Shown here: piece by piece, positions 13,157-59,432 of the stretch | Numbering within the stretch: the first letter of the stretch is position 1 | Layout of the letters: the number at the start of each line of letters is the position of its first letter | From: an uncultured Sphingomonadaceae bacterium | GTDB lineage: Bacteria > Pseudomonadota > Alphaproteobacteria > Sphingomonadales > Sphingomonadaceae | Direction of reading: 5' to 3' | DNA: 64,000 bases | Assembly: GCA_947501695.1 (NCBI GenBank) | Contig: CANMWO010000003.1 | Span: 211,001-275,000, forward strand | Made by a program: the position numbers and the translations under genes | Notes under the pieces: generated by a model | Database searches by the model: none | Told to the model about the DNA's origin: nothing | Seen by the model: the letters and a program-made list of their open reading frames with translations, nothing else

Positions 13157-13174
13157 TTTAGCTAGTCAGTTAAA
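13157..13174. promoter_or_regulatory. Candidate operator upstream of the PQQ alcohol dehydrogenase
   Basis: TTTAGCTAGTCAGTTAAA, an imperfect dyad. Its right half, TCAGTTAAA, is identical to the perfect palindrome at 28692-28709, and it matches the TTTAA-N8-TTAAA pattern of three other sites except for one base in the left arm. A TTGACC, possibly a -35 box, lies at 13139-13144, so the dyad would overlap the -10 region, a position that suits repression. The bound protein is unknown. Confidence 0.5.
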
Positions 13175-13219
13175 TCAGGTTGGGCCCATGAAGGCTGAAC
13201 CGGCTCGGGAGAAGTGACG

Positions 13220-15379
13220 ATGCGTCGTTTGGGATTATTTTTTGTAACATGCTTATTGGCCGCTTGCCAAAATCAAACGGCTGAAGAGGGTAGCGCATCT
13301 GCCGCTAGTGGTGGCGCTGAATGGAGCAATATTGGCTTTAACGCCAAGGAACAACGGCACAGTCCCCTAGACCAGATTAACGAGAGCAATGTCGGCGAAC
13401 TGGGCATAGCCTGGTTCAAGGATTTGCCGGACGCCCGAGGTCAGGAAGCGACGCCGATTGTTGTCGATGGCAAACTCTACATCTCCACAGCTTGGTCGAA
13501 AGTCTTCGCATATGATGCGAAAACCGGCAAGGAACTCTGGTCTTATGATCCGGAAGTACCCGGCGACAAAGCAGTTGATGCTTGCTGCGATGTCGTCAAT
13601 CGCGGCGTTGCGATTTCGCGCGGCAAGTTATTTTTCGGCACTATTGATGGCCGCCTGATCGCATTGGACGCGAATACAGGTGCGCGGCTTTGGGAAAAGC
13701 AGACCACCGATAATTCAAAGCCTTACACCATTACTGGCGCGCCGCGTGTGGTGAAAAACATGGTCATCATTGGCAATGGCGGCGCGGAATTTGGCGTACG
13801 CGGCTATGTGACTGCTTATAATGTTTCCGACGGTTCTCAGAAATGGCGCTTCTACACCGTTCCCAATCCCGAAGGCAAAGCGGACGGCGCGGCGAGCGAC
13901 GAGATTTTTGCGAAAGCCGCGAATAAAACCTGGGGTGATGGAAATTGGAGAGAATCCGGCGGCGGCGGAACCGTCTGGGACAGTATCGTCTATGACGAAG
14001 AGCTAGACCAACTCTATTTCGGCGTTGGCAATGGCAACCCCTGGAATCACGGACTGCGTTCCGGTGGAGAGGGCGACAATCTGTTTCTTTCCTCGATCGT
14101 TGCAGTGAATCCTGACACAGGAAAATATCTCTGGCATTATCAGGAAACACCCGCAGAAACTTGGGACTATACTGCCACCCAGCATATTATCATTGCCGAG
14201 GTGGATTGGCCCGTCGACGCCAAAGAGGGCGAAACCACGGCGTTGACCGAGAAACGCAAAGTGCTCTTCCATGCGCCCAAGAACGGATTTTTCTTTGTCA
14301 TCGACCGGACAAATGGCCGGTTGATGAGCGCAGAACCTTTTGTCGACAATATCAATTGGGCTGAGGGCTATGATCTGGAAACCGGTCGGCCAATAGAAAA
14401 CCCGGAAGCGCGTTTCTATAAAACCGGCAAACCATTTGTTTCGATCCCGGGCGCTCTGGGCGCTCATAACTGGCATCCGATGAGCTATAATCCGAAAAGT
14501 GGTTTGGTTTATATTCCCGCACAACAAATTCCGCAGGGTTATGATGTGCCTACCACTGACATTGACAAGAAACGTGAGCGGCTGGGCTTTAACGTTGGCA
14601 TCTCCTGGGCGATTGGCCAACTACCCGATGATCCGGCAATCTATAAAGCGGCGATCGCTGCTACCACGGGTAAGCTAGTCGCCTTTGATCCTAACACCGG
14701 TAAAGTGGCCTGGTCCGTCGATCACCCCGCTGCATGGAATGGCGGAACAATGACAACGGCCGGTAATCTGGTCTTTCAAGGTACCAGCGTTGGCCTGTTC
14801 AAAGCCTATACCGCCGATAGCGGCAAAGAGCTTTTGAGCCTCGATATGCAGTCCGGCATTGTTAGCGCGCCATCGACCTATTTGGTGGACGGTGAACAAT
14901 ATGTCGCGTTCCTGACCAGCAAGGGTGGTGCCTTTCCGCTGGTTGCCGGTGTCGCCGGCGGCGCATCACGGCAAGTTCCGAATATTCCGCGGCTGGTTGT
15001 CATGAAACTGGGCGGGGAAACAGCACTACCGGCACTGCCAGAGAAAAGCGAAGTCGTCTGGAACCCGCCGGAGCCAACCGGGACACCGGAACAGGTCGCT
15101 GAAGGTAAAGCGCTTTATGGCCGCAACTGCCTCGTCTGTCATGGCGACAGCGCGGTGGGTAATGGCTTTACACCGGATCTGCGTATTTCCGGTACTCTGG
15201 CCAGCACAGAAGCATGGGCTTCGATCATAACTGGCGGCGCATTGAAACAACATGGCATGGTGAGCTTTTCGTCACAGCTAAATGCCGGTCAAGTCGAAGC
15301 AATGCGTCATTATGTTATCGATCGGTCTAATTGGACCAAGGCCAATGTCGCCGAAGACACCGCTCCCATTGCGCGATAA
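13220..15379 (+). CDS. PQQ-dependent quinohaemoprotein alcohol dehydrogenase, lipoprotein
   Basis: Oxidises alcohols in the periplasm with PQQ and passes electrons to a fused haem c; 719 residues. A lipobox (LLAAC, Cys16) predicts a lipid anchor. The eight-bladed propeller shows the vicinal disulphide C122-C123 (DACCDVVNRG), the family segment DNLFLSSIVAVNPDTG and the catalytic aspartate D316 in ETWDYTATQ. A cytochrome c domain at the end has C637-x2-C640-H641 (NCLVCHG). ATG at 13220 is chosen over GTG at 13214 because GGGAGAAG then has proper spacing and the signal peptide starts cleanly. No PQQ biosynthesis genes lie nearby. A shared palindrome lies 46 bases upstream. Confidence 0.93.
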   Translation: MRRLGLFFVTCLLAACQNQTAEEGSASAASGGAEWSNIGFNAKEQRHSPLDQINESNVGELGIAWFKDLPDARGQEATPIVVDGKLYISTAWSKVFAYDAKTGKELWSYDPEVPGDKAVDACCDVVNRGVAISRGKLFFGTIDGRLIALDANTGARLWEKQTTDNSKPYTITGAPRVVKNMVIIGNGGAEFGVRGYVTAYNVSDGSQKWRFYTVPNPEGKADGAASDEIFAKAANKTWGDGNWRESGGGGTVWDSIVYDEELDQLYFGVGNGNPWNHGLRSGGEGDNLFLSSIVAVNPDTGKYLWHYQETPAETWDYTATQHIIIAEVDWPVDAKEGETTALTEKRKVLFHAPKNGFFFVIDRTNGRLMSAEPFVDNINWAEGYDLETGRPIENPEARFYKTGKPFVSIPGALGAHNWHPMSYNPKSGLVYIPAQQIPQGYDVPTTDIDKKRERLGFNVGISWAIGQLPDDPAIYKAAIAATTGKLVAFDPNTGKVAWSVDHPAAWNGGTMTTAGNLVFQGTSVGLFKAYTADSGKELLSLDMQSGIVSAPSTYLVDGEQYVAFLTSKGGAFPLVAGVAGGASRQVPNIPRLVVMKLGGETALPALPEKSEVVWNPPEPTGTPEQVAEGKALYGRNCLVCHGDSAVGNGFTPDLRISGTLASTEAWASIITGGALKQHGMVSFSSQLNAGQVEAMRHYVIDRSNWTKANVAEDTAPIAR

Positions 15380-15416
15380 CATAGGCGAATCCTTGCTGCC
15401 TAAAATTTAGGCTGAT

Positions 15417-15445
15417 CCGCCCAAAAATGCCTGTTTTTTGGGCGG
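15417..15445. terminator. Stem-loop after the PQQ dehydrogenase gene
   Basis: An 11-bp perfect stem, CCGCCCAAAAA with TTTTTGGGCGG, and a short loop. The T-run lies inside the stem rather than after it. An alternative, weaker hairpin pairs AGGC (15408-15411) with GCCT (15429-15432) and would be followed by GTTTTTT, a terminator-like form. Either way it probably separates this gene from glnB. Confidence 0.6.
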
Positions 15446-15507
15446 CATTGAAACTATCCTCGTTTGGCTTTAGCAGTTTATCAGCGATTCTTTTACTGAT
15501 TCCAATC

Positions 15508-15523
15508 TGGCATGGTAATTGAA
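15508..15523 (+). promoter_or_regulatory. Weak candidate sigma-54 promoter for glnB
   Basis: TGGCATG-N4-TTGAA keeps the -24 GG and the 10-base gap but has GA instead of GC at -12. It lies about 80 bases before glnB, a gene often under NtrC/sigma-54 control in alphaproteobacteria. The mismatch at -12 makes this tentative. Confidence 0.28.
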
Positions 15524-15529
15524 TTGTAG

Positions 15530-15940
<411 letters not shown>

Positions 15941-16023
15941 GACAGCGCCATAGAAAAAGCGACGCTATTTGATTTTCACCTTTCAGCTAATTTAAACATC
16001 AAAACAAACCAAGGGACAAAATA

Positions 16024-17436
16024 ATGGGCAATACACCTGCAGACGTCATGAAAATGATCAAGGAACATGAGATTGAGTGGGTCGATGTGCGCTTCACCGA
16101 TCCACGCGGCAAATGGCAGCATCTGTCTATGTGTGCAGAAGTGATCGACGAAGATGTTTTGGAAGAAGGCTTTATGTTTGATGGCTCGTCCATCGAAGGC
16201 TGGAAAGCGATTAACGAATCCGACATGATCCTGCGTCCTGATCTGGATGCTGTTTACATGGATCCGTTTTCAGCCACGCCAATGATGGTATTGGTCTGTA
16301 ACATTGTCGAACCCGGCGATGGCTCTCTCTATGGTCGCGACCCACGCTCCACGGCTGTGCGGGCAGAGGCTTATCTGAAGTCTACAGGCATTGGTGACAC
16401 AGTCTATGTTGGTCCAGAACCAGAATTCTTCATGTTTGACGATGTCAAATTTGAAGATGGATACGATCGTTCAGGCTTTAAAATCGATGATGTCGAGCTG
16501 CCCACTAACACTGGCCGCGATTATGAAATCGGCAATATGGGCCATCGCCCTCGCGCCAAAGGTGGTTATTTCCCAGTTGCACCAGTTGATAGCGCTATGG
16601 ATATTCGCGCTGAAATGGTTGCGACCATGATGGAAATGGGATTGCCGATGGACAAGCATCATCACGAAGTGGCCGCAGCACAGCACGAGCTGGGCATTAC
16701 CTTTGGTACACTGACTGAAACTGCTGACCGCACACAGGTTTACAAATATGTCGTGCAGCAAGTTGCCCATGCCTATGGCAAAACCGCAACCTTCATGCCG
16801 AAACCGATCAAGGAAGATAACGGCTCCGGCATGCACACGCATATGTCGATCTGGAAAGACGGCAAGCCGCTTTTCGCAGGCAATGAATATGCTGGCCTGT
16901 CGGAAATGTGCCTTCATTATATTGGTGGCGTGATCAAACATGCCAAAGCATGTAACGCCTTCACCAATGCCACGACCAACAGCTATAAGCGACTGGTTCC
17001 CGGTTTTGAAGCACCCGTGCTGCTGGCTTATTCCAGCCGTAACCGTTCTGCCTCTTGCCGTATTCCTTACGGTGCAGGAGACAAAGCGAAGCGCGTTGAA
17101 TTCCGTTTCCCGGATGCGCTTGCCAACCCATATCTGTCGGCAGCAGCCCTGTTGATGGCTGGTCTCGACGGCATTGAGAATAAAATCCACCCCGGCGATG
17201 CGATGGACAAAAACCTCTATGACCTGCCGCCAGCGGAACTGGCCGAAGTTCCAACCGTTTGTGGTTCGCTCCGTGAAGCGCTCGAAGCCCTCGAAGCCGA
17301 TCATGAATTCCTGCTCAAAGGCGATGTGTTCTCTAAAGACCAGATCGACGCTTATGCGGAATTGAAATGGGAAGAAGTCAGCCGTTTGGAAACAACCCCA
17401 AGCCCGGTTGAATTTGACATGTATTATTCGTCTTAA
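16024..17436 (+). CDS. glnA: Glutamine synthetase type I
   Basis: Makes glutamine from glutamate, ammonia and ATP as a dodecamer; 470 residues, typical GSI-beta length. Landmarks include [19 protein letters not shown] (beta-grasp loop), the metal/substrate segment [11 protein letters not shown], the ATP-binding stretch [19 protein letters not shown], and Y399 in KNLYDLPP, the adenylylation tyrosine equivalent to Tyr397 of E. coli. It therefore belongs to the GlnE-regulated class. Ribosome site AAGGGA lies about 7 bases upstream. It follows glnB and ends at a strong terminator. Confidence 0.97.
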
Positions 17437-17457
17437 AATAGGCGACCCAACAAAATG

Positions 17458-17488
17458 AAACCCGGGGCAAGCAATTGCTCCGGGTTTT
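17458..17488 (+). terminator. Intrinsic terminator after glnA
   Basis: A stem of about 12 bp (AACCCGG-GGCAA pairing TTGCT-CCGGGTT, with one G-T pair) and loop GCAA, followed by five T. It closes the glnBA operon. Confidence 0.92.
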
Positions 17489-17568
17489 TCTGTCTAGGCC
17501 GTCTCCAAAGCGCGATGTTCAGCATCCCGACAGACTTCTCATGCGTATGAGAATATGGGGAATATGGT

Positions 17569-18213
17569 ATGATACGACAAAATTTGACGTTCTTTTTCAC
17601 AGCAATAGCGTTGCTGTTGTCCGCCAGTCTTGCAGGGGCGCAAGAACCCGATTTTCTCGAACTGGAAGGGGTCAGCCTGGAAATGACACCAGACCAAGTG
17701 CGGGCTGCCATGCAGGCCAGAGGCAATTCTATAGCCGGGAAAGACAAAGACGACCGGTTAAAATACAATACGAGCTTCCAAAATCTGGTTGCTGTAAAAC
17801 GGCAGGATCCAGAACGATTCAAAAGATATACATTAACCAGCGAGCTGCGCTACGAAACCGAGCGGGGTCATTTGCGCATCAGTTTCATGCCGTTTGTCGA
17901 TCGGCTTGTTGTCGTTTCGGCGCGTTTATCTTCTAACGAAGCGCCTTGGCTGGACAGCGCTATTCCTAATTGTACAAAGTTTATCGATAAGATGAGCGAA
18001 AGGTACCAACTCGATACAAGCACCAATAAACAATTGGGACTTTCCGGCTATTCTTCAAAGCAACGACCGATGACGGTGAATGGCCAGTTGCAAGAAGATG
18101 GACAAATTCTGCGCTTCCTTTGCTCTCCCAGAATCATGCCACAAATTCTCCTTCACAATCCCCATGCCCGGGACTTGCTCCTGCAACAGATTGACCAAGC
18201 GCTATCCGATTAG
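17569..18213 (+). CDS. Exported protein of unknown function
   Basis: A 214-residue protein with a clear Sec signal peptide (LTFFFTAIALLLSASLAGAQ, cleavage near residue 24). The mature start, FLELEGVSLEMTPDQVRAAM, resembles a small domain common in sphingomonad exported proteins in which a short helix follows a beta strand (weak resemblance). Two cysteines lie in the mature part (PNCTKF and FLCSPR) and might form a disulphide. No enzyme motif was seen. It is flanked by the glnA terminator upstream and the convergent tamB gene downstream, so it is probably monocistronic. Confidence 0.78.
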   Translation: MIRQNLTFFFTAIALLLSASLAGAQEPDFLELEGVSLEMTPDQVRAAMQARGNSIAGKDKDDRLKYNTSFQNLVAVKRQDPERFKRYTLTSELRYETERGHLRISFMPFVDRLVVVSARLSSNEAPWLDSAIPNCTKFIDKMSERYQLDTSTNKQLGLSGYSSKQRPMTVNGQLQEDGQILRFLCSPRIMPQILLHNPHARDLLLQQIDQALSD

Positions 18214-18257
18214 CCTTTGCTGACCCTATCCAGATAGCGATCACTGTGCCGGGGAAA

Positions 18258-21200
18258 TCAATAGTCCTTCGACACCTGCACATTCACATTTTGGCGGCCG
18301 ATGGTTGAGATACTCGATAATATCGATAACCAGCGGGTGATCTGGAATTCCAGCGTTGTCGCGCTATAGCCCTTGCCGTCGGTGATCAGCTCAACATAAG
18401 CACGGCGGGTGATATATTTGCCCGCAGCGATTGATGTACCCTGGCCGCTGTCGACGTCCGATGGCAGGATACGCAATCGGTCGAGGCCAACAGCTTTGCG
18501 GAGCTGGTTGATCGGATCAAGCCCGCCCCCGCTATTGAGCGAGGCAACCGCTGCGGCCAATTGTACTGCTTCTGGTGCCGACAGATCAGATATGGATGCC
18601 CCGAACAAGACACGGGATAGCAATTCATCCTCTGGCAAAGCGGGCACACTGTTAAATGCGATTTCTGGTCTGTTGCCGCGGCCAGTGACATTGATCGTGG
18701 CATTGAGGCCGGTCAGATTTGCTTCAGCTTCAATATCCAGTATCGGATTGGGTGGTTGGTTGCCCACAAAGCGAATCCGTCCGCGCTCCAGCTGAAACCG
18801 GCGGCCAGCAAATGTGTAGTTGCCGCGGACAAGGTTCGCGCTGCCCGTCATGGCAAAATTATCGACGGGGCCTGATACTTTCAAATTGGCGCGCCATTCG
18901 CTGTCGAGACCAAGTCCTTTCACCTGCAAGCGATTAGGCGCCGTGGCATTGAGTGCAAAGCGCCAAGGGCGGCTGCGAACAACCGGCGGGCGTTCATCGG
19001 CGCGGCGGTTGATTTCGGTCACTTTGATTTTCGGCAGAGCAACGGTTTCAGTGGCATTGCCAAATTGGAAAAAACTGCGATTCAGTGTCAGATCACCGGA
19101 TATCAGCCCCCCATCAGCGGAGCTACGAATCTCGATTGGTCCGGTAACCGTCGCCGCAAAATCATCGCGGGCTATTAAACGGGCATTTTGAGCATTCATA
19201 TCAAGCATGATGCCAACGCCTTCGCCTGGACTCACTGCGAAGTTGAAACTGCCGCTGCCGCTTACCGATCCACCTCCCCTGGTCAAGCCCGTGATTTCGG
19301 GAAGTATTAGCCGTGATCCGTCAAACTGACCTTGCGCCTTGATACCGGAGATCACTGTTCCGGTGAGACCGCTTTCCAGTCGGGCATTGGTGGTGCGCAG
19401 CTGTCCGTTAATTTGTGGATTGGCAAGCGTCCCCCGCACATCGGCACTGAGATTGAGCGGCCCGGTAAGATCAAATGTTTCCACGCCGGTAAGCCGCCAC
19501 AAGGCATCAGCCGCGCCATTGAATCGTGCTTGAGCGAATAGGGGGCTGCGCGTTAATTCATCCTTCCAATCGCCACCACCAAAGCCGGTAACCCGGCCCT
19601 GAAAGCGACCGATAGTTTTCGATTGCGACTGAATAATTCCGCGTGCTGCAGCGTTGCGATTGGAAATTGCAATGTTCAAACCGAGGTCAATGGGCGTCGA
19701 CGTCAGAATCAATCCGGATCTGGTAAGACCCTTGATGTTCAGCTTCGCTTCCCCGGTCGGCATTTGCGAACCCGTTTGGGTTAATTTGACCGTACCATTG
19801 GCCTCTCCGCCAAGCCCTAAATCATCTGCAACAATATCTGCAAGGGTTAGCGGCATTTTTGAAAGGTTCACGTCGAGCCGCGAAGTTCCGCTTGCCCATT
19901 GACCGGAAACGCGCGTGCGGCCTTTGCCATAGCTTAACAGTGTCGGTGACATCGACCAGCCACCGCTTACGCGGCTCAATTCAAGCGGTTGGACAAGCCG
20001 CAAAGTTCGGCCTTCAAACAAACCATTTCCCGTCATCTCATAACGATCCGGTGTAATCTTCGCCCTTGCTTGAAAATTGAAAGTGCTGCCCCTTGTACCG
20101 GCAACCGAGAATGTCGCATCGCCGGTTCCGTTGATCAGTTTGGCATTTCCGGCAATCCGACCGACCATCAAATCTCCGCGGCTGATCCCCTGCGCTTGCA
20201 CGGTCACATCAACGTTAGACTGTCCTTCGACGAGCACAACATCTGCATCCAGCGTTCCGGTTCGAATGAAAATTGGTGGCACGCCGTCAAAACGAGCATT
20301 TTCGGCATTTAGTTTCGCGCGGATCAATTGACGGTTCGGCCTGGGTTCAAACAAAACACTCCCAATCACGCCACCGCCACTTATCGAAAGATTACCCGCT
20401 AGCCCTTCGGCCGTCGGACGAATGACCCCGGTGGCTAGCGTATCCGATACCTTTAGCTGATCGACACGAACGCGGGTTTCTTGGCCCGCGATAGCTACAA
20501 TCGCCCCATTGCCGGTAAAAGGCCCCAGCGTTGATCCACCGGCAGCTGTAAAGGTAAAGCCATTTTCAGCTGGATCAAGATTGAGCTTCACCGCGGAAAG
20601 GCCCGCCGCAGGCAGCGGACTATCAAGTAAAACCGCAATCTGTGGGCGATCCAAAGAACCCTCAAGGCCTAGATCAAAACCACCATATTGGTCATGCTCG
20701 CCGCGTCCGGTAAACTCGAATATAGTGGCGGTTTGCTGCACGCCGCTGCCTTTAAAGCGCAGCTTCGGCGCTGTAATATTCAAATCAGGAAAACGCAGCT
20801 TGCGATCAGCACCCAGCACCAGTCCGGTCTTGACCACTGGGAGACCACCGCCCAATTCGCGCAGAAACACATTATCAAATCGTCTCAAATTTGCTGTCAC
20901 TTTTCCATCGAGCGATACACCAGCAGCCCCCGGTCCAATTTCCAAATCCGCGAGGATGTCAATAATTCCGATCCCGTTCATTGCGAAACCCGGTGCTTGC
21001 GCATCCAAGACAATGGCATAGTCCCCAGTGGCCAGACGTGCGTCAATATCGGCCGTGGCCCTGACACTGTCCGTTGTAATGACTGCATTCTCGGCAAACA
21101 GACGCCCTTGCTCCAATCGCAAAAGAGCATTGCCGTTAAAGCCGGACAAAAGCTGTTTGAGCAGATCCCCATTGCCAATCAGCGACCCGACCGCCAACTC

Positions 21201-24589: not shown

Positions 24590-24747
24590 AGCAGATTCTT
24601 TAGCCGCTCACTCTGGAGGAAGCCAACAAAATAGGCCGGTTTTAGGCGAGTGCATCATTTAACCGGACAATCTGCTGAATAATCAATGGATAAGCACCCC
24701 GTGAGCGACTTGTCACATGTATCTTTATGTGACCATTATCGCCGCAT

Positions 24748-24763
24748 TTAACCAGCTGTTAAC
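24748..24763. promoter_or_regulatory. CtrA-like binding site
   Basis: TTAACCAGCTGTTAAC is an exact match to TTAA-N7-TTAAC, the full CtrA box of alphaproteobacteria. It lies about 80 bases upstream of the secreted-protein gene and about 160 bases from the divergent tamA start. Binding is inferred from the motif alone. Confidence 0.45.
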
Positions 24764-24839
24764 CATCTTGGCCCATATTTTGTCTGTTAGTATAAACGGC
24801 CTGCGTATCGGGTCGTTATCAAAGTGGGAATGTAACATA

Positions 24840-25406: not shown

Positions 25407-25413
25407 AGCCGGT

Positions 25414-26580: not shown

Positions 26581-26581
26581 A

Positions 26582-27496
26582 TCAAATAGCCGTGGTTTCG
26601 ACATGGGCGGCCGGACGGCCGCGGCGGGTGGCCAATATGCAACCAGCAACGATCAGCACCGTGCCGAATATTGTCGGCAAGGTGACGGGTTCTGAAAAGA
26701 ATATCCATCCAAAAATTGCTGCCCAGATAAAGGCGCTATATTCCAGATTAATCAGAACCTGCGCCTGCGCCCGCGCATAGCCCCAAGCGATGAACAGCGC
26801 GGAGATAATCGACAATAAGGCTGCGGCCAAAAATTCCGGGGCATATTGCATGTCCGGAACGACCGCAAAAAACGGCGCGACCAGCGCATAGCTGACCCCG
26901 ACCACAAGATTTTGGAAAAAGCTGATTTCAATGGGGTCCGCGAGCAAGGCCTGGCTGCGCTGGATCACCAGATTGGCGGCATAGAGTAGCGCGGACAGCA
27001 ACACCGCACCAAAACCGAGCAGCTCATCATTGGTATATTCACCGCTTATCTTTCCCCAACCAATGACGACAACCCCGGCGAGGCCGAGCACAGACGCAAA
27101 GATCGCATTGCGGTGAATAGTTTCGCCCAGGAACACCGCCGCCAGATAAAGCGCGATAATCGGCGCAATGAACGACAGCGCCACGGCTTCGGCAATTGGC
27201 ACCCGGACGAGTGCCCAAAAGAACAGAAACGCCATGAAAACTGTAATAATCCCGCGCTGCAGATGAATTTTCAACGTGGGCATCGCGGGCAATTTGGGGC
27301 GGCGCGCGAAATAGAGCATGCTCACCAGAATAAGCGCCAACAACACCCGCCAGAATATCGCATTATAAGCCCCCAACGAGATGCTGAGGCTCTTCATCGC
27401 AACATCCATCAGGCAGAAAAAGGCCAGGCCAACTAGCACTGAGCCTATTGGCAATATTGGCGCACCTTGGTTTTGAGGATCAGGACCGACGGACAT
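26582..27496 (-). CDS. DMT-family (EamA) transporter
   Basis: An inner-membrane transporter of the drug/metabolite family, 304 residues with ten predicted membrane helices in two EamA repeats (first half to about residue 155, second from about 160). Typical stretches are FWALVRVPIAEAVALSFIAP and FIWAAIFGWIFFSEPVTLPTI. Substrates in the family include amino acids and other metabolites. The open frame extends to 27730, but the first 78 residues are Arg-rich and unlike a membrane protein, so ATG at 27496 is used. It lies 41 bases after the acyl-CoA dehydrogenase gene and just before the AlkZ-like gene, all leftward. Confidence 0.9.
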   Translation of the reverse strand: MSVGPDPQNQGAPILPIGSVLVGLAFFCLMDVAMKSLSISLGAYNAIFWRVLLALILVSMLYFARRPKLPAMPTLKIHLQRGIITVFMAFLFFWALVRVPIAEAVALSFIAPIIALYLAAVFLGETIHRNAIFASVLGLAGVVVIGWGKISGEYTNDELLGFGAVLLSALLYAANLVIQRSQALLADPIEISFFQNLVVGVSYALVAPFFAVVPDMQYAPEFLAAALLSIISALFIAWGYARAQAQVLINLEYSAFIWAAIFGWIFFSEPVTLPTIFGTVLIVAGCILATRRGRPAAHVETTAI

Positions 27497-27537
27497 CGAA
27501 ATGCTATCGGGCCGACGCGTAAAAAAGTCTAGCCGTG

Positions 27538-28680
27538 TTAAAGCCCCATTTGCCGCACGGCCAGATCGCGCATGATTTCCTCTGAGCCGCCGCCAATTGC
27601 CATTACTTTCACCTCGCGGTAAAAGCGTTCGACGACATTGCCGCGCAAATAGGCGGCCCCGCCCCAGATTTGCATGGCTTCGCTCGCGCAATATTCGAGG
27701 TTTTTGGTGCTGAAAAACTTGGCTTTGCAAATCTGATCAACCGGCATCTGGCCGTTTTCGGTCAGGAAGCAAATCTGGTTGACCCATGCTTCGGTCGCAT
27801 CAACACGAGCCGACATTTCGGCGATTTTATGCCGGATCACCTGATGCTGGCTGAGTGGCTTGCCAAAGGTCTCGCGTTGCTGCGCATAGGCAATGGATTC
27901 CTCCAGCAACACCCGCATCATGCCGAGACACTGCGCGACCATGCCGAGCCGTTCATAGTTGAAATTATGCATGATCTGGATGAACCCGCGGCCTTCGTCA
28001 CCAAGCATATTGCCTGCCGGAACCCGGACATCATCGAAATAGAGCGTCGCCTGATCCGATGCCCACCACCCCATTTTCTTGTCCAGCGCGGTGCGCGAAA
28101 AGCCTTCCATGTCCTTCTCGACAAGGAAGAGCGAAATACCGTTCAGACCCTCGCCGCCAGTGCGCGCACCGACGACGAAATAATCTGATGTCATCCCGCC
28201 CGTGATAAACGTCTTGGACCCGTTGATGATCCAGTGATTGCCATCTTGCCGCGCGGTCGTTTTCATATTGGCGACATCAGAGCCACCGCCTGGTTCTGTT
28301 ACGCCCAGACTCGAGCCTGTGCGCCCTTCGACAATATCTTTGAGAATGCGGTCCTTAATCTCTTGCGATGCCATTTTTTCGATCGGGCCAATGGAAATAC
28401 TGCGCCCACCCAGTGCCGCCAATGTCCCGCCATTATGCGCGCGTGCGGCTTCCTCGCCCCAGATGCAGCGCATATACATATCGTCAAAACCAAGGCCGCC
28501 ATATTGCTCTGCGACACCAAAGCCCCAGGCGCCCAGTGCCCCAACTTTTTCATGGATTTCCCAAGGGATTTCGCCTGCTTCATCCCAGTCATTGGCAAAG
28601 GGCTGCAATTCGGTCTCGGTAAACCGCCGGGTCATTTCGCGAAATTGTTGGCGTTCTTCGGTATCCTCGGCGTGGCGCAT
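27538..28680 (-). CDS. Acyl-CoA dehydrogenase
   Basis: FAD flavoenzyme that forms the 2,3-double bond of acyl-CoA, 380 residues, normal length. It has an N-terminal helical domain, the FAD-contact motif GVTEPGGGSDVANMKT (about residues 125-140), and the C-terminal IWGGAAYLRGNVVERFYREVKVMAIGGGSEEIMRDL segment. The chain-length or branched-chain class cannot be set by eye. It follows the thioesterase after a 24-base gap that contains an 18-bp perfect palindrome ending only 12 bases before the ATG. AAAGGA precedes the start. The context (Fe-ADH, thioesterase) suggests breakdown of an alcohol-derived acyl chain. Confidence 0.94.
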   Translation of the reverse strand: MRHAEDTEERQQFREMTRRFTETELQPFANDWDEAGEIPWEIHEKVGALGAWGFGVAEQYGGLGFDDMYMRCIWGEEAARAHNGGTLAALGGRSISIGPIEKMASQEIKDRILKDIVEGRTGSSLGVTEPGGGSDVANMKTTARQDGNHWIINGSKTFITGGMTSDYFVVGARTGGEGLNGISLFLVEKDMEGFSRTALDKKMGWWASDQATLYFDDVRVPAGNMLGDEGRGFIQIMHNFNYERLGMVAQCLGMMRVLLEESIAYAQQRETFGKPLSQHQVIRHKIAEMSARVDATEAWVNQICFLTENGQMPVDQICKAKFFSTKNLEYCASEAMQIWGGAAYLRGNVVERFYREVKVMAIGGGSEEIMRDLAVRQMGL

Positions 28681-28691
28681 GGTCTCGGTCC

Positions 28692-28709
28692 TTTAACTGA
28701 TCAGTTAAA
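28692..28709. promoter_or_regulatory. Perfect 18-bp palindrome, candidate operator
   Basis: TTTAACTGATCAGTTAAA is fully self-complementary. It spans the thioesterase stop codon and ends 11 bases upstream of the acyl-CoA dehydrogenase start codon. The same TTTAA-N8-TTAAA frame recurs before both TonB receptors and, with one change, before the PQQ dehydrogenase. Dyads of this size are typical of TetR-type or FadR-type regulators; no such gene is in the window. Confidence 0.6.
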
Positions 28710-29154
28710 AGGTTATCAATTCCAGCGCAGAACGCAAGGGCGCGGACAGCGGGGTGGGCCGCCGGCTCTCCCGATCCACATAGACATGGGTGAAGCTGCC
28801 TGCCGCAGACGCGGTTTTTTCATCACCGCGAAACAGACCAACACCATAGGTGACACTGGTCCGGCCGAGCTTCTCAACCCGGATACGCGCTTCGACTAGA
28901 TCGGGAAATGATATGGGCGCAAAATATTCGCAAGATGTCTGGACTACCAACCCAATGACATCGCTCTTACCAATGTCGAGCGCCCCTTGTTCGATCAGAT
29001 AGCGGTTTACCGCACTATCGAACCAGAAATAATAGACCGCATTATTGACATGACCATAGGGATCATTGTCATTCCAGCGGGTAGTGATCGATGAGCCGTC
29101 ACGGTAATCATCCCAGACGGGTGGCGGTGTCCGATCTTTACCAGGCATCGGCAT
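28705..29154 (-). CDS. Hot-dog-fold acyl-CoA thioesterase
   Basis: Thioesterase of the 4-hydroxybenzoyl-CoA/YbgC-like group, 149 residues. The hot-dog active-site stretch WNDNDPYGHVNNAVYYFWFDSAVN (about residues 28-51) has the Asp and the GHVNN motif of the family. It hydrolyses an acyl-CoA thioester, substrate unknown. The start overlaps the end of the Fe-ADH gene by 17 bases; ATG at 29148 is an alternative. Together with the Fe-ADH and the acyl-CoA dehydrogenase it forms a leftward catabolic operon. Confidence 0.9.
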   Translation of the reverse strand: MPMPGKDRTPPPVWDDYRDGSSITTRWNDNDPYGHVNNAVYYFWFDSAVNRYLIEQGALDIGKSDVIGLVVQTSCEYFAPISFPDLVEARIRVEKLGRTSVTYGVGLFRGDEKTASAAGSFTHVYVDRESRRPTPLSAPLRSALELITF

Positions 29155-30298
29155 AGATCCGTTTGGCGTCGGCTAGGTCCAGCTCTTTGGGATTATTGAC
29201 CAGCAGCCTTGTCTGCAACATCGCTGCCTCTGCCAGTTCATCCACAGCATCTTCGCCAATCCCGACATCCCGCAAGCGGCGGGGGGCATTGACCTTCACG
29301 GCGAGCGCTTCGAGATAGTCGATCAATTCCTGTGCTCGCGCCTCGGCGCTATTCGGGCCGGTTTTTGGTACATTCAGCGCATCGGCCAGTTCCGCGTAAA
29401 GCGGCGCAGCGGCATCGAGATTAAACTGCATGATGTGCGGCATAACCAGCGCATTGGAGAGGCCGTGCGGGATATGATAAATCCCGCCCAGCGGATAGGC
29501 CAGCGCATGGATAGCGCCCACGGGGGAATTGGCAAACGCCTGCCCCGCCAGCATGGAACCGCGCAGCATCGCTTCTCGCGCCGCCATATTGGTGCCGTCA
29601 GAACAAGCCGTCTCAATATGCCCGGTCAGTAATTTCAGCGCCTCGATCGCCAGCATATCCGATACCGGATTTTTGGCATTGCGGCCGGTATAAGCCTCGA
29701 TCGCATGGACCATCGCGTCAATACCCGTGGCCGCTGTCACATCAGCGGGCAATCCCAGCGTCAACGAGGGGTCGAGGATCGCGGCGTCGGCGAAGAGATG
29801 CGGCGAAACAATCCCTGCCTTGGTCGTCTCGCCAGTGGTCAGGATGGAGATAGCGGTGACTTCGGAACCCGTGCCCGATGTTGTTGGGATCAGGATGGTT
29901 GGCAGACCTTTGCGGGCCAATTGACCCACACCATAGATTTCGGAAAGCGCTTGCGCGTCATCTATCGCCAGCGCCGCCACAACTTTGGTCGTATCAAGCG
30001 AGCTACCACCACCTAGGCCAATGACGATATCGACCTTCGCCGCCTTCGCCATATCAATGGCTTGCTGCACGACCGCTTCGGGTGGATCGGCGACGACCGC
30101 ATCATATATCTGCGCGGTTAAACCCGCATCGGATAGAGCCTGCTCCACCGGAGCGATCAGGCCAGCGCCGATAATGCCTTTGTCGGTGACGATAAGAGGA
30201 CGGGATGCGCCCAAGGCGGCAATTTGATCGGCCAGCATCGCAAGGCATCCCTCACCAAAATGCAGGACCGGTACGGATTGAAAACTATAGCTCTTCAT
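29138..30298 (-). CDS. Iron-containing alcohol dehydrogenase
   Basis: Group III alcohol dehydrogenase, 386 residues, standard length. It has the NAD(P)-binding GLGGGSSLDTTK motif (about residues 92-103), PTTSGTGSEVT, and metal ligands in the HALAYPLGGIYHIPHG segment, which holds the family's histidines. The physiological direction is unknown. ATG at 30298 (MKSYSFQSVP) is used; the upstream in-frame start at 30340 adds 14 residues that do not fit the family. It is the first gene of the leftward catabolic unit, and its promoter should lie between 30299 and the terminator at 30355-30381. Confidence 0.93.
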   Translation of the reverse strand: MKSYSFQSVPVLHFGEGCLAMLADQIAALGASRPLIVTDKGIIGAGLIAPVEQALSDAGLTAQIYDAVVADPPEAVVQQAIDMAKAAKVDIVIGLGGGSSLDTTKVVAALAIDDAQALSEIYGVGQLARKGLPTILIPTTSGTGSEVTAISILTTGETTKAGIVSPHLFADAAILDPSLTLGLPADVTAATGIDAMVHAIEAYTGRNAKNPVSDMLAIEALKLLTGHIETACSDGTNMAAREAMLRGSMLAGQAFANSPVGAIHALAYPLGGIYHIPHGLSNALVMPHIMQFNLDAAAPLYAELADALNVPKTGPNSAEARAQELIDYLEALAVKVNAPRRLRDVGIGEDAVDELAEAAMLQTRLLVNNPKELDLADAKRIYADAW

Positions 30299-30354
30299 GG
30301 TCGGACTTTTGCACCGATCATGCGTGCGCGCAACCGGCATTGATCAGGGGCAAC

Positions 30355-30381
30355 AAAAAAGGGGCCGGAAAAACCGGCCCC
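30355..30381 (-). terminator. Intrinsic terminator of the first TonB receptor gene
   Basis: Stem GGGGCCGG / CCGGCCCC with a 5-base A/T loop (30361-30381), followed on the minus strand by six T. It lies 40 bases after the receptor stop. A nearly identical terminator follows the second receptor gene, showing the pair arose by duplication that included the 3' flank. Confidence 0.93.
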
Positions 30382-30421
30382 TCCTTGGTGGTGACGAAAT
30401 GCCCCCAAACCTTATGTCGTT

Positions 30422-32956
30422 TTAGAATGCTCCGCGAAGGGTCAAACCAAATGTCCGTGGCTCCTGCGGGAAAGCAGAGCGTGAACCAGACCGCAACACA
30501 GTGTTAAACGTAACACCGCGTGTGGTTTCGTTGGTCAGGTTTTGAACCCAGGCTTCGATGCCCCATGTGTCATCCTGGCTACCGATACCGGCGCGCAGGT
30601 TGATTTTGACATTGCCGTCTTGAACATCAAATGGAACTGGCGTCCGTGTCGTCAGATCCGATGGATCAAACGCTTGTGTTGACGTCCGGCGATCGCTCTC
30701 GAACCGGACGGAACCGTTCAGGAAGAAATCCAGATTATCGCCAAGATCGCGCTCATAGGTTGCGCCGGTAATGGCAACAATCTGAGGCGCATTGGTCAAT
30801 GAGTTTCCGCATAGCGAAAGAACATTGTTCGATGTCTGCGTTCCAGCGCAATCATTTGGATAGTTCGCATCGGTATAAGTAACACCAGCATTCAGGGTGA
30901 AATTATCATCAGGCCGGATGACAGCTTCGATTTCAACACCCTGCGATTCCGCTTTTGGTACGTTGAAAGTCTGGAACTGAGCGCCCGTAAATTCAAGAAC
31001 CTGGAAGTTTGAGAATTCCTCATAGAAAGCCGCAACGTTCAAAGTTACTGCGTTGTCCAGGAACTTGGCTTTCAAACCAATCTCATAGGCATCAACTTCT
31101 TCCGAAAGGAAGCTTGGATCTGCACCACTAACAGCCGCCGTTGAATCGAGGTTGAAACCGCCTGATTTATAACCATGCGTAAAGCTGGCATAAATATTGA
31201 TCGGATCAGCAAACTCATAGGATGCTTTAACTGTGTAGATCAACTCGCTGTCGCTAAAGTCACCGGTAAAGGTCCGTGGCAAAGGAAGGCCATTGCCCGG
31301 TGCTGTTGCTGAGCCAGGCAGGTCGGCTGGAGCCACAAAGGCAAAACAGCCGGTTCCGAACAATCCGTTACCCAAAGCGGTACCCAAAGGTGGCGCAGGA
31401 GGCGCACCAGCAGGCGGTGTGCCGGTAACGTTGGATGCAATTGCGCCACAAAGCGCATTGTTCACAGCAGGCTGGCTAAAGCTACCGGTTTTGCTTTCGT
31501 CAGAATAACGCAGACCCACGGTGAATTCCAAGCCGTCTGTGATTTCAAGCGAATTATGCGTGAAGAACGAGAAGCTCTCACTGTCCTGAGCATAAGCATT
31601 GGTTGCCGTCACGCTGGCCGGACTAACTCCGCCAGAGAAAAGAGCCAATGGCGCCGGTCCTGCGGCACCACCGAATAGAGCGCCAACAAGTCCGTCATAA
31701 TCAGCACCCAGCGAGAAATCGGTTTGTTGCCGGATTTTCTCGTCGGAATAATAAGCGCCAACCAACCAGTTCAGGCTTCCGTCGAACAATTCACCCTGGA
31801 AACGCAGTTCATGCGTTTGTGTGGTGATTTCGGTGTTGAGACGGTCGACATTGAAGACATCTAGACCCGAGAAATCCGAGTCATAGGATTCAACAGATTC
31901 GAAATCGCGGTAAGAACCGATATAGATGACATCTGCATTATCACCGAGTGGGAATTCGATCTCGGCACTAACACCCCATTGGTCAACATCTGCTTCAGGC
32001 ACGAAGTTCAGGGTTGCGACCCGGTCTTCCAATGCTCGCTCAGCCGCAGTTTGATCATTGCGATTTGCGTTGAAATTAGGAGCAGCCATACCGCCACGAG
32101 CGCCAAGGCCAACCGCAGCAAATGCGCCACCAGTTTCAACTGGAGATTGCAAAAGCTCTACAGCGCCACAGCAACTGGACGTGCTCTTGGAATAATCGCC
32201 GATCAAACGAACCGTCAGACCGCTATCGCCTTCATAACCAATTTGACCACGCACGAGATATTGATCGATATCATTGGTTTCACCAATGTCGTTACCCGCG
32301 CCGTCTAAAACGTCGATATAACCATCGCGTTGACGATAAGCACCGGTCAAACGAACCGCGAGCGTATCTTGGATAATCGGAGCGTTAATCGCGCCCTGAA
32401 CACTCAGCAGATCATAATTGCCGTAACTTGCATTAGCAAAACCACTAAATTCCGAAACATCAGGACGTTTGTTGGTGATATTCAAAGCACCAGCTGATGT
32501 GTTCCGACCGAACAATGTGCCCTGTGGTCCACGCAGAACTTCGACCCGTTCAACATCGACAAATTCGGAAAGCGCAACGCCGGGACGCGATTGATAAACG
32601 CCATCAACGAAAATACCGACAGCGGACTCAAAACCAATATTATTGGACGTCGTACCAACACCGCGAATTCGCAAAACAACCGAACCGGATGCGATCTGCG
32701 CGTTTGAAACTGCGAAACTAGGCGAAACACTGCCGATATTCTGAACGTTAACGACACCCTGTTGCTCCAATTGGACCGGGCTAATTGCCGTCACAGCGAG
32801 CGGAATATCTTGAACATCCTGGGCACGGCGGGTGGCGGTCACGATGATGACATTGTCATCAACGGTTTCTTCTGCGCCTTGATCTTGCGCATAAGCTGGG
32901 GCTGTCATGGCACTGGTGCACAAAGCTGCCATGAGGACGCGATTCAAACTTTTCAT
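30422..32956 (-). CDS. TonB-dependent receptor (paralogue 1)
   Basis: Outer-membrane gated transporter, 844 residues. The signal peptide ends at AYAQ (about residue 24). A TonB box-like IIVTATRR is followed by a plug with VLRIRGVGTTSNN and VEVLRGPQGTLFGRNTSAGALN, then a 22-strand barrel ending in FGLTLRGAF. The substrate is unknown; siderophores, terpenoid or aromatic compounds are all possible for this sphingomonad type. A Pro/Gly/Ala-rich insertion (near residues 510-550, TGTPPAGAPPAPPLGTALG) is absent from paralogue 2 and lies in an outer loop. GGGAGAG is 7 bases before the ATG. An operator-like dyad lies about 100 bases upstream. Confidence 0.95.
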   Translation of the reverse strand: MKSLNRVLMAALCTSAMTAPAYAQDQGAEETVDDNVIIVTATRRAQDVQDIPLAVTAISPVQLEQQGVVNVQNIGSVSPSFAVSNAQIASGSVVLRIRGVGTTSNNIGFESAVGIFVDGVYQSRPGVALSEFVDVERVEVLRGPQGTLFGRNTSAGALNITNKRPDVSEFSGFANASYGNYDLLSVQGAINAPIIQDTLAVRLTGAYRQRDGYIDVLDGAGNDIGETNDIDQYLVRGQIGYEGDSGLTVRLIGDYSKSTSSCCGAVELLQSPVETGGAFAAVGLGARGGMAAPNFNANRNDQTAAERALEDRVATLNFVPEADVDQWGVSAEIEFPLGDNADVIYIGSYRDFESVESYDSDFSGLDVFNVDRLNTEITTQTHELRFQGELFDGSLNWLVGAYYSDEKIRQQTDFSLGADYDGLVGALFGGAAGPAPLALFSGGVSPASVTATNAYAQDSESFSFFTHNSLEITDGLEFTVGLRYSDESKTGSFSQPAVNNALCGAIASNVTGTPPAGAPPAPPLGTALGNGLFGTGCFAFVAPADLPGSATAPGNGLPLPRTFTGDFSDSELIYTVKASYEFADPINIYASFTHGYKSGGFNLDSTAAVSGADPSFLSEEVDAYEIGLKAKFLDNAVTLNVAAFYEEFSNFQVLEFTGAQFQTFNVPKAESQGVEIEAVIRPDDNFTLNAGVTYTDANYPNDCAGTQTSNNVLSLCGNSLTNAPQIVAITGATYERDLGDNLDFFLNGSVRFESDRRTSTQAFDPSDLTTRTPVPFDVQDGNVKINLRAGIGSQDDTWGIEAWVQNLTNETTRGVTFNTVLRSGSRSAFPQEPRTFGLTLRGAF

Positions 32957-33056
32957 AACTATTCTCTCCCGTTGAAATCACCGCCGCTTACCATTTGTCC
33001 CTATAATTTGGGGAAGGAGCATGGTCTTATTACGTCGGTTTCAAGAGCATAGGTCG

Positions 33057-33074
33057 TTTAATCAGATCGTTAAA
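33057..33074. promoter_or_regulatory. Candidate operator upstream of TonB receptor 1
   Basis: TTTAATCAGATCGTTAAA, dyad with arms TTTAA and TTAAA and an 8-base centre. It lies 101 bases upstream of the start codon, nearly the same distance as the site before receptor 2 (98 bases). It is one of four related sites in the window. Confidence 0.58.
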
Positions 33075-33140
33075 TCAAGGCGATATGCACATTACTGTAC
33101 AGAAAAACGCGGGCCGTGGTAAAAATGATACAATGCAAAA

Positions 33141-33167
33141 CGGCTGGATTTCCGGTGGAACCAGCCG
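33141..33167. other. Stem-loop upstream of TonB receptor 1
   Basis: CGGCTGG pairs with CCAGCCG, with an inner TTCC/GGAA extension. Read on the minus strand it is followed by TTTTG, so it may be a weak second terminator insulating the receptor 1 promoter. Function unproven. Confidence 0.4.
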
Positions 33168-33240
33168 ATCAAAACACAATCTGTGGTATATATGATGCTA
33201 TTGTTACACCATCGGGCGAGTGCGAATGGGCCGGACGCAC

Positions 33241-33266
33241 AAAAAAGGGGCCGGAAAACCGGCCCC
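33241..33266 (-). terminator. Intrinsic terminator of the second TonB receptor gene
   Basis: Stem GGGGCCGG / CCGGCCCC with a 4-base loop (33247-33266), followed on the minus strand by six T. It is almost identical to the terminator at 30355-30381. Confidence 0.93.
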
Positions 33267-33304
33267 AATCATGCTGACGAAATGCCCCCTAAGCCATTAT
33301 AGTT

Positions 33305-35773
33305 TTAGAATTTTCCGCGCAGCGTGACACCAAATGTCCGTGGCTCTTGAATATAAGCGGAGCGCGATCCTGATCGAAGGACTGTATTAAAGGTCACCCC
33401 ACGAGTCACTTCATTGGTCAAATTGTTAACCCATGCCTCTATGGCCCACAGGTCATCCTGGCTGCCGATACCGGCGCGCAAATTAATCTTGGTATTGCCG
33501 TCCTGAATATCGAAAGCGAGGGGCGTCTTGTCATCTAGATCACCAGGATTAGATGGCTGGGTGGATGTCCGGCGATCGCTTTCCATGCGGATTTGACCGT
33601 TGAGGAAAAAATCGAGATTATTGCCGATATCATTTTCATAAGTTGCGCCAGCTATCGCAACAATGTCCGGAGCATTGGTGAGCGAAGCGCCGCATAGATT
33701 CTGAACCTGTAGATCGGTCAAATCACCCGCGCAATCATTGGGGTATCTCGCATCCGTATAAGTAAGGCCCGCATTCAGAGTGAAATGATCGTCCGGACGA
33801 ATGACCGTTTCAATTTCAACGCCGGTGGTTTTCGCTTTGGGTACGTTGAACGTCTGGAACTGAGCACCCGTAAATTCCAGAATTTGAAAATCCGTAAATT
33901 CTTCATGGAAGCCGGCAACATTCAGCGTCACCCGATTATCAAGGAACTTGGCCTTCAAGCCTACTTCATAGGCATCAACCTCTTCGGAATCGAAGCGCGG
34001 GTCACCACCACCGGCTGCAGCAGTGGAATCGAGATTGAAGCCGCCAGATTTATAGCCGTGGGTAAAGCTCGCATAGACATTGACTGGGGCGGCAAATTGA
34101 TAGGCGATTTTACCGGTATAGATGAGTTCGCTATCGTTAAACTCACCGTTAAATTCCCTTGGCAAAACTGCGAAGGGAATCGCGGCGTCTGTTGCATCGG
34201 TGCCAATAGCGGGTGCCAAAAACGCGAAGCAGCCGAGCCCGACCAAGCCTCCCGGATTAGTTGCTGGATCGGCAAGAAAGGCGCTCCGGATACCGGCGCA
34301 CAGTGGATTGTTGTTAGCAGCCTGTTCAAAACCGCCATCTTTGGACTCGTCAGAGTAACGCAAACCAACAGTCAGTTCCAAACCGTCGGTAACTTCCAGC
34401 GTATTATGGGTAAATAGCGACCAGCTCTTGCTGCTTTGGTTATAGCTGTTGGTCGTCGTGACAACCGAAGGATCGATGCCGGTAATAGTCTCCAACGGAC
34501 TGGCACCCAACGCGCCCTGCAAAAGCACGCCGACCAACGCGTCATATTCGTTACCCAGTGAGAAATCGACATCCTGCTCTATGTCTTCATCCGAATAATA
34601 ACCGCCAACCAGCCAGTTTAGTGCGCCGTCAAAGGCTTCGCCTTGCACCCGGAGTTCATGGGTCATGGTGTTGATATTGGACCGCGCCAGATCAACATCA
34701 AATATATCGAGTGCGGTAAAATCAGAGTCATAGGATTCTCTGGTGTCAAATTCGCGATAGGAACCGATATAGATAATGTCTGCGTTGTCGCTGATCGGAA
34801 ATTCAATCTCTCCGGTGACGCCCCATTGCTCTATATTGCCGCGCGGCGCGAAATTGGCTGACGCGATGCGATCGTTGACGGCTTCCTGTCCGTTATTGGG
34901 CTGAAACTGGCCGCCACGAGCACCAAGACCAAGGGCTTCAAAAACGCCCCCCGTTTCCAAGGGCGAAGGCAGCAATTCAATAGCAGAACAGCAATTGGCC
35001 GTGCTTTTCGAAAAATCGCCGATCACGCGGACCTTCAAACCGCTGTCGCCTTCATAACCGAGCTGACCACGCACAAGATATTGGTCAATCTCGTTCGATT
35101 CGCCAATTTTCTCGGTTTCATCGACCACATCGATAATTCCGTCACGCTCACGATAGGCACCGGTCAAACGAAGCGCTAATGTGTCCTGAACAATCGGGAC
35201 ATTAATCGCGCCTTGGACGCTCATCAGGTCATGATTGCCGTAGGTGGCATTCACGAAGCCACCAAAATCATTGAGATCGGGACGCACATTGGTGATCGTC
35301 AATGCACCAGCTGAAGTATTGCGGCCGAATAATGTACCTTGCGGACCACGGAGAATTTCAACCCGCTCAACATCAACAAATTCGGAAAGCGCTACGCCGG
35401 GACGAGACTGATAAACACCATCAACAAAAATACCGACCGCGCTTTCAAAACCGATATTATTGGATGTCGTTCCGACGCCCCTGATCTGCAACACTATCGT
35501 GCCCGATGCAGCCTGCGCACTGGATGTCGAAAAACTGGGCGAGACTTGCGTGATATCCTGAACGTTCACGACGCCCTGCCGCTCCAGTTGGACCGGGCTG
35601 ACTGCGGTCACGGCCAGCGGAATATCCTGAACATCCTGCGCCCGGCGCGTGGCCGTCACGATGATGATATTGTCATCAGTGGCTTCTTCAGCGCCTTGAT
35701 CTTGCGCATAAGCGGGAGTGGCGATTGCTGTGCTGCACAGGGCCGCCAAGAGGACGCGATTCATACTATTCAT
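33305..35773 (-). CDS. TonB-dependent receptor (paralogue 2)
   Basis: Outer-membrane TonB-gated transporter, 822 residues, closely related to the receptor encoded just downstream. The signal peptide MNSMNRVLLAALCSTAIATPAYAQ, the TonB box region IIVTATRR and the plug (VLQIRGVGTTSNN, VEILRGPQGTLFGRN) are nearly identical, while the outer-loop regions differ most. The barrel ends FGVTLRGKF. ATG at 35773 is chosen since GGAGAG then lies 7 bases away, exactly as in paralogue 1; the frame is open to an ATG at 35788. It has its own promoter region and terminator, so the two are likely expressed separately but under the same kind of operator. Confidence 0.95.
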   Translation of the reverse strand: MNSMNRVLLAALCSTAIATPAYAQDQGAEEATDDNIIIVTATRRAQDVQDIPLAVTAVSPVQLERQGVVNVQDITQVSPSFSTSSAQAASGTIVLQIRGVGTTSNNIGFESAVGIFVDGVYQSRPGVALSEFVDVERVEILRGPQGTLFGRNTSAGALTITNVRPDLNDFGGFVNATYGNHDLMSVQGAINVPIVQDTLALRLTGAYRERDGIIDVVDETEKIGESNEIDQYLVRGQLGYEGDSGLKVRVIGDFSKSTANCCSAIELLPSPLETGGVFEALGLGARGGQFQPNNGQEAVNDRIASANFAPRGNIEQWGVTGEIEFPISDNADIIYIGSYREFDTRESYDSDFTALDIFDVDLARSNINTMTHELRVQGEAFDGALNWLVGGYYSDEDIEQDVDFSLGNEYDALVGVLLQGALGASPLETITGIDPSVVTTTNSYNQSSKSWSLFTHNTLEVTDGLELTVGLRYSDESKDGGFEQAANNNPLCAGIRSAFLADPATNPGGLVGLGCFAFLAPAIGTDATDAAIPFAVLPREFNGEFNDSELIYTGKIAYQFAAPVNVYASFTHGYKSGGFNLDSTAAAGGGDPRFDSEEVDAYEVGLKAKFLDNRVTLNVAGFHEEFTDFQILEFTGAQFQTFNVPKAKTTGVEIETVIRPDDHFTLNAGLTYTDARYPNDCAGDLTDLQVQNLCGASLTNAPDIVAIAGATYENDIGNNLDFFLNGQIRMESDRRTSTQPSNPGDLDDKTPLAFDIQDGNTKINLRAGIGSQDDLWAIEAWVNNLTNEVTRGVTFNTVLRSGSRSAYIQEPRTFGVTLRGKF

Positions 35774-35870
35774 AATCATTCTCTCCATTTGAACGTAACC
35801 ACAGCGTTGCCATTTTCGTGGGGATGGTGGGGAATGGTCTTATTTGCTGCGGCTACGCTTGCATAAGTCA

Positions 35871-35888
35871 TTTAACTGGGCCATTAAA
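35871..35888. promoter_or_regulatory. Candidate operator upstream of TonB receptor 2
   Basis: TTTAACTGGGCCATTAAA, dyad with the TTTAA-N8-TTAAA pattern. It lies 98 bases upstream of the receptor 2 start and about 156 bases upstream of the divergent DUF3604 gene, so it could serve both directions. Confidence 0.58.
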
Positions 35889-35956: not shown

Positions 35957-36043
35957 AGCATTGTGAAGCCGTACGGCAGAGTCGTGTAAAACGAGGGGTA
36001 AAAAGGATGCGCCCAGTCAATGAGGCGTACGGAGGGGAAAGAA

Positions 36044-59348: not shown

Positions 59349-59432
59349 GGCTTTACTCGCTTGATTATAGTGGTTTCTCCCTCAATATAGGGGTTGAGGC
59401 GGGCTTTTTCAAATGTGCAGGAAATAGAAACT

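Follow-up and report, generated by a model that had tools for sequence, protein, structure and literature searches.

Palindromes before acyl-CoA, alcohol-oxidation and TonB-receptor genes of a Sphingomonadaceae bacterium as probable operators of a TetR-family regulator

Four related palindromes stand near genes for an alcohol dehydrogenase, an acyl-CoA dehydrogenase (ACAD) and two TonB-dependent receptors in a 64-kb stretch of DNA, and this raises the questions of whether they mark one regulon, which protein would bind them and what such a regulon would be for. The window, meaning this whole stretch, is C3:211001-275000 of a 3.6-Mb genome. The preliminary description had claimed four sites of the TTTAA-N8-TTAAA type, one of them a perfect palindrome, and all four 18-mers were confirmed together with their coordinates. 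None of them has a strand.

The first palindrome, TTTAGCTAGTCAGTTAAA (13157..13174), lies 5' of a gene for a PQQ-dependent quinohemoprotein alcohol dehydrogenase with a cytochrome c domain (13214..15379, plus strand; TIGR03075 629.6 bits, PF13442), whose best solved-structure match is the type II quinohemoprotein alcohol dehydrogenase 1kv9 (E 1e-201). It is the weakest of the four, with a PWM score of 14.4. The perfect 18-bp palindrome, TTTAACTGATCAGTTAAA (28692..28709), is located between the genes for a 4HBT thioesterase (28705..29154, minus strand; PF03061) and an ACAD (27538..28680, minus strand; PF00441/PF02770/PF02771); 11 bases separate it from the ACAD ATG, and one of its arms contains the thioesterase stop codon. 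The remaining two precede the receptor genes, TTTAATCAGATCGTTAAA (33057..33074) 100 bases upstream of TBDT1 (30422..32956) and TTTAACTGGGCCATTAAA (35871..35888) about 98 bases upstream of TBDT2 (33305..35788). Both receptors are encoded on the minus strand, carry PF00593 and PF07715 and are 72% identical to each other. The distances of 98 and 101 bases proposed earlier hold if TBDT2 starts at the in-frame ATG at 35773, whereas from the longest-ORF start at 35788 the TBDT2 gap is 82 bases. An iron-containing alcohol dehydrogenase gene (29138..30340, minus strand; PF00465) belongs to one gene run with the receptors, the thioesterase and the ACAD, and this order is kept in 10/10 inspected genus loci. 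The TTTAACTGGGCCATTAAA region is shared with a divergent gene for a DUF3604 protein (36020..37951, plus strand; PF12228, 713 bits), a possible further target. A third receptor paralog (L116, C3:146432-149020), 73% identical to TBDT2, lies approximately 92 kb to the left of the receptor pair, with no upstream PWM site of at least 14 among the matches listed.

Within the window the pattern is clearly overrepresented, with 7 strand-wise matches vs a mean of 0.11 in window shuffles. Genome-wide, the loose pattern TTTAR-N8-TTAAA gave no excess over the reversed control (18 forward and 19 reverse matches vs 20 and 14), so that the simplest check suggested earlier went against the proposal. The loose pattern was therefore replaced by the refined TTTAAY(N6)RTTAAA, with 11 matches in the genome vs 2 for its reversed control, and by a PWM. 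The signal resides in the position of the sites, in their inner bases (Y...R, then CG..CG) and in their conservation. Among 19 of the 20 loose-pattern positions in the genome (C3:623022 was left out), 14 are within about 110 bp 5' of a gene start and five are intragenic. The intragenic ones score 14.4 at most; low scores also occur among the 14 upstream positions, namely L004 (11.3) and the window site at 13157 (14.4), and one of the 14 (L011) overlaps a 110-aa ORF that was taken as spurious. The PWM was built from 81 exact-pattern sites and excludes the sites of G000 and G089, the off-consensus matches of G001 (1), G087 (1) and G023 (3), one TTTAG site of G131, the matches of G008, G032, G040, G069 and G094, and unlisted matches. 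Applied to the 1.04 Mb fetched around matches, it found 128 sites scoring at least 14, of which 93 are intergenic, although 87% of the bases were called coding; the reversed motif gave 8 matches, 6 of them intragenic. The 35/128 sites inside called ORFs count against the regulon reading, and crude ORF calling in G+C-rich genomes probably explains part of them.

No matching regulator had been seen in the window, and this is borne out: the candidate is encoded 15 kb to its left. This candidate TetR regulator (C3:195218-195892; PF14514, 168 bits) stands at the end of a thiolase-SDR-enoyl-CoA hydratase-tetR run that is itself headed by a site (C3:192169), so the search for a TetR gene with the same site in its own promoter, proposed in the preliminary description, was successful. 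Although PF00440 is weak (19.8 vs a cut-off of 24), the AlphaFold model (pLDDT 85.5) is nearly all helical and matches 2qtq and other TetR structures; on this basis the protein has the helix-turn-helix TetR_N and the all-helical ligand domain of the TetR family. Its closest relatives are found in uncultured Sphingomonadaceae and Sphingorhabdus sp. EL138, then more distantly in Parasphingorhabdus marina. Among solved proteins the closest is Saro_1072 from Novosphingobium aromaticivorans (PDB 2qtq, 2rha), with 62% identity to the predicted model (Foldseek TMt 0.96, E 9e-19) and a recognition segment that is identical in the alignment. For Saro_1072 there is just a crystal structure, which bears the title "predicted dna-binding transcriptional regulator," and the matches listed report no operator, targets or ligand for it. 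The literature matches listed, whose coverage leaves out most subscription journals, likewise hold no report on this motif, this TetR or the function of Saro_1072; in the accessible part of PMC2685735, 2qtq and 2rha are merely among the structures used as data.

The association of the site with the tetR gene extends to relatives. The best 80 of 274 relatives in a species-genome collection were taken as TetR loci, and they come from Sphingorhabdus, Parasphingorhabdus, Novosphingobium, Blastomonas and other relatives. A site scoring at least 17 is present in 71/80 of these loci and the reversed motif in 0/80. In 65/71 the site is 2.9-3.2 kb before tetR, which in the window's genome is the start of the thiolase run. 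Shorter distances are seen in L219, L220 and L275 (2.1-2.2 kb before tetR) and in L219, L234 and L248 (32-72 bp 5' of where the tetR match begins), and the sole match of L213 is 5.7 kb downstream of tetR. Nine loci are without a site; in six of them (L216, L226, L228, L240, L264, L273) the upstream sequence is shorter than 2.7 kb. As far as sequence can tell, a site before the regulator's own run or gene in most of the 80 loci points to a palindromic operator and to autoregulation. The segment GLNSALVKYYFGNK is invariant in 16 aligned TetR orthologs and differs in 7/8 paralogs shown. Paralog L055 has NSALVKYYFGNK, which shares most of the recognition segment, and its genome (G027) is without a site, which cautions against over-reading this segment. 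A different palindrome, AAGTGATCACTT, is found at L022:4191-4202, across the stop codon of the enoyl-CoA hydratase gene that immediately precedes tetR.

What the sites precede was assigned in the window's own genome by Pfam and NCBIfam. Besides the quinohemoprotein alcohol dehydrogenase, the ACAD and the two receptors of the window, and the thiolase run, sites are located before an acyl-CoA ligase followed by a P450 (C3:187622; best NCBIfam match FadD4, below cut-off), before ACADs (C3:422148 and C1:350540, in addition to 28692), a CoA-transferase III (C1:124217), an enoyl-CoA hydratase (C3:488987), an alpha/beta hydrolase and amidohydrolase (C1:707041), a metallo-beta-lactamase-fold protein adjoined by an AMP-ligase gene (C1:573941) and an aldo/keto reductase (C1:205554). 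The low-scoring site C1:337008 has a DUF4402 gene downstream. Downstream of a target ACAD of the same genome (G000) there is also an APH-type phosphotransferase (L026:7028-8089).

In relatives, 18/71 first target genes encode ACADs and 14/71 thiolases, as determined by blastp against known members, which gave 0/59 for each class among control genes of the same stretches. By Pfam, the controls include 2/59 enoyl-CoA hydratases; that listing covers 25 of 58 families, so the control zeros for ACADs and thiolases rest on blastp. The other first targets include 4 AMP-ligases, 3 GMC oxidoreductases, 3 enoyl-CoA hydratases and 2 CoA-transferases. These 71 genes include G089 and exclude G000, and 25 sites scoring at least 20 contributed no target, since a complete gene start was lacking within 250 bp. 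The acyl side of the acyl- and alcohol-related theme suggested earlier is thus strongly supported; its alcohol side gains moderate support from the PQQ dehydrogenase sites in relatives and the GMC oxidoreductases (3/71). APH and DUF6285 proteins each make up 2/71 first targets; with the APH-type phosphotransferase noted above, this resembles the levulinate (4-hydroxyacyl-CoA) set. An unexpected target class is a cluster of approximately 285-aa proteins whose genes follow a site in four family genomes (L122, L127, L154, L188); the L122 member is an AAA (MoxR-like) ATPase by Pfam.

The palindromes are very probably operators of one TetR repressor that would control acyl-CoA catabolism, alcohol oxidation and TonB receptors. 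Judged by its sites, the regulon proposed in the preliminary description is real, but it is wider than earlier thought, covering acyl-CoA degradation genome-wide. The idea of one pathway for an unknown compound did not survive: many acyl-CoA operons throughout the genome are preceded by a site, and the TetR therefore looks like a general regulator of acyl-CoA catabolism. It is most likely an acyl-CoA-responsive repressor in Sphingorhabdus, Parasphingorhabdus and Novosphingobium, although we infer its binding, repression and ligand. In the proposed mechanism, TetR dimers would bind TTTAAYCGNNCGRTTAAA-like sites near promoters and repress the operons of acyl-CoA catabolism along with the genes for the quinohemoprotein alcohol dehydrogenase and the TonB receptors. 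Their release, most likely by a substrate-derived acyl-CoA, would jointly induce uptake, alcohol oxidation, CoA activation and beta-oxidation. The site at 28692 might serve an internal promoter or form a roadblock. A consensus scan for sigma-70-like promoters found none over the receptor sites, with match numbers as in shuffles, and for this reason repression by position is a prediction. An acyl-CoA is the likely effector, since acyl-CoA enzymes make up the targets and FadR structures are among the distant structural neighbors of the candidate TetR; EthR2, RutR and KstR2 are structurally as near as FadR, so this hint to the effector is a lead only.

PsrA, FadP and Bacillus FadR are TetR-family regulators like the candidate, with regulons dominated by acyl-CoA catabolic genes. 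According to the accessible part of PMC5343134, FadP and PsrA are both TetR-type regulators of fatty-acid degradation, and within the set of taxa compared there FadP is restricted to betaproteobacteria. As with these regulators, genes of acyl-CoA catabolism are the targets here. The candidate fails the curated NCBIfam cut-offs of PsrA (21.4 of 300 bits) and Bacillus FadR (21.9 of 200) and by this measure is not orthologous to them, yet it probably works like them. Its putative regulon differs from theirs by the TonB receptors and the periplasmic PQQ alcohol dehydrogenase, and this combination is the least expected feature of the regulon. PA3973 of Pseudomonas aeruginosa has a different motif (SAAGRNMTGAACG) and an AidB-type ACAD. 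For the Saro_1072 family, with a crystal structure since 2007, these findings add a predicted operator, a site at its own operon and a list of targets. Control of lipid-type catabolism in these sphingomonads becomes testable, and specific TonB-dependent receptors, whose substrates are seldom known, are linked to acyl-CoA metabolism. More tentatively, one lineage-wide TetR of the Saro_1072 family might sense an acyl-CoA and co-induce TonB-dependent import across the outer membrane, periplasmic PQQ alcohol oxidation, CoA activation and beta-oxidation, in which case the tandem receptors would import a lipid-like alcohol or ester and not iron or sugar.

The same TetR regulon could instead respond to an intermediate from a single, particular type of substrate, such as isoprenoid, steroid or branched alcohols, and constitute the pathway for it, which we consider rather unlikely. 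Such a substrate would fit a pair of neighboring ACAD genes that follow a single site (L021), with PimC the best NCBIfam match of one of them (below cut-off); it would also fit the CoA-transferase III, the cytochrome P450 adjoining the acyl-CoA ligase, and the GMC and PQQ alcohol dehydrogenases among the targets or their neighbors. The targets, however, vary by genome, and the commonest ones are plain beta-oxidation genes: of 15 site-bearing genomes, 10 have the thiolase cluster as a target, 7 have one ACAD cluster and 6 the ligase. A steroid-degradation reading after PMC12882949 was dropped, as the TetR palindromes printed in the accessible part of that paper (ATAGGGCCATTG, GCATGCGGGATGC) are not this motif.

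The tie between the TetR and the sites is also evident from their co-occurrence. TetR orthologs, defined by at least 52% identity, were found in 17 of 149 family genomes, presence being scored in the sampled family set and titled loci. At least two refined sites occur in 15/17 TetR-positive vs 2/132 TetR-negative genomes (Fisher p 1e-16). Site totals are 120 vs 21 for the reversed pattern in the former and 12 vs 28 in the latter. The exceptions among TetR-positive genomes are G138 with no exact sites, G069 with one and G068 with 13 vs 11 control matches. That another regulator binds the sites and the TetR merely travels with the clade is improbable. The co-occurrence is partly phylogenetic and binding of the TetR to the sites is predicted, but a site heads the TetR run or precedes tetR in most of the 80 loci, and the five family genomes with only 36-38% paralogs of the TetR have 0 sites.

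Conservation in relatives, another check proposed earlier, was found for the ACAD, receptor and PQQ dehydrogenase sites (counts include the window's own copy; the genus set has 32 genomes). A site of at least 17 precedes the ACAD in 25/26 genus loci, where the outer TTTAA/TTAAA are kept and the inner bases vary between subgroups; one more distant ACAD relative, in G023, is without a site. For TBDT2-type receptors such a site is present in 19/27 genus loci, 14 of these at 96-107 bp, and missing in 8/27. Across the family, with one receptor relative per genome, it is found in 7/10 TetR-positive vs 0/20 TetR-negative genomes (best score 10.1), and PQQ dehydrogenase relatives have a site of at least 14 in 6/10 vs 0/20 (maximum 6.5; Fisher p 4e-4). 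At these thresholds 3/10 receptor and 4/10 PQQ dehydrogenase relatives of TetR-positive genomes are without a site, the copy of the latter in same-genus G089 scores only 9.2, and the G137 row is not independent, since its PQQ dehydrogenase site is among the 81 PWM sites. The receptor count leaves out three partial loci (L335-L337), and the ACAD and M48 counts leave out a partial ACAD locus (L388), an M48 locus with stops (L367) and an M48 match without a locus (G168). Without a locus and hence unscored are 9/39 listed matches of one relatives search and most of another.

The TBDT1 site is patchy, scoring at least 13 in L338, L340, L343, L316, L318, L321, L322 and L325 and not found in L339, L341 and L342. 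In L316, L318, L321, L322 and L325 TBDT2 is missing from this place and DUF3604 adjoins TBDT1; all five keep the TBDT2-type site beside DUF3604 and have another (13.4-18.2) before TBDT1. This retention hints at DUF3604 as a putative target, and membership of the DUF3604 trio in the regulon, suggested earlier, remains only possible on the basis of the common divergent region and these five genomes.

A fifth PWM match in the window (17.1; 59352..59369, strandless), 5' of an M48 peptidase gene, was dropped, as a site of at least 17 is present in 2/29 genus loci; it serves as a check of the method, picturing an unconserved match. It is scarcely credible that the palindromes are chance AT-rich matches: the loose pattern does equal its reversed control genome-wide, but window shuffles give 0.11, the ACAD and receptor sites are kept at 25/26 and 19/27 genus loci while inner bases change, none precedes the 20 receptor and 20 PQQ dehydrogenase relatives of TetR-negative genomes, and an unconserved match looks like the M48 case. 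Several receptor copies of the genus (G089 C1:1592281-1594830, L317 of G154 and L331 of G170) contain a single in-frame stop and may be decaying.
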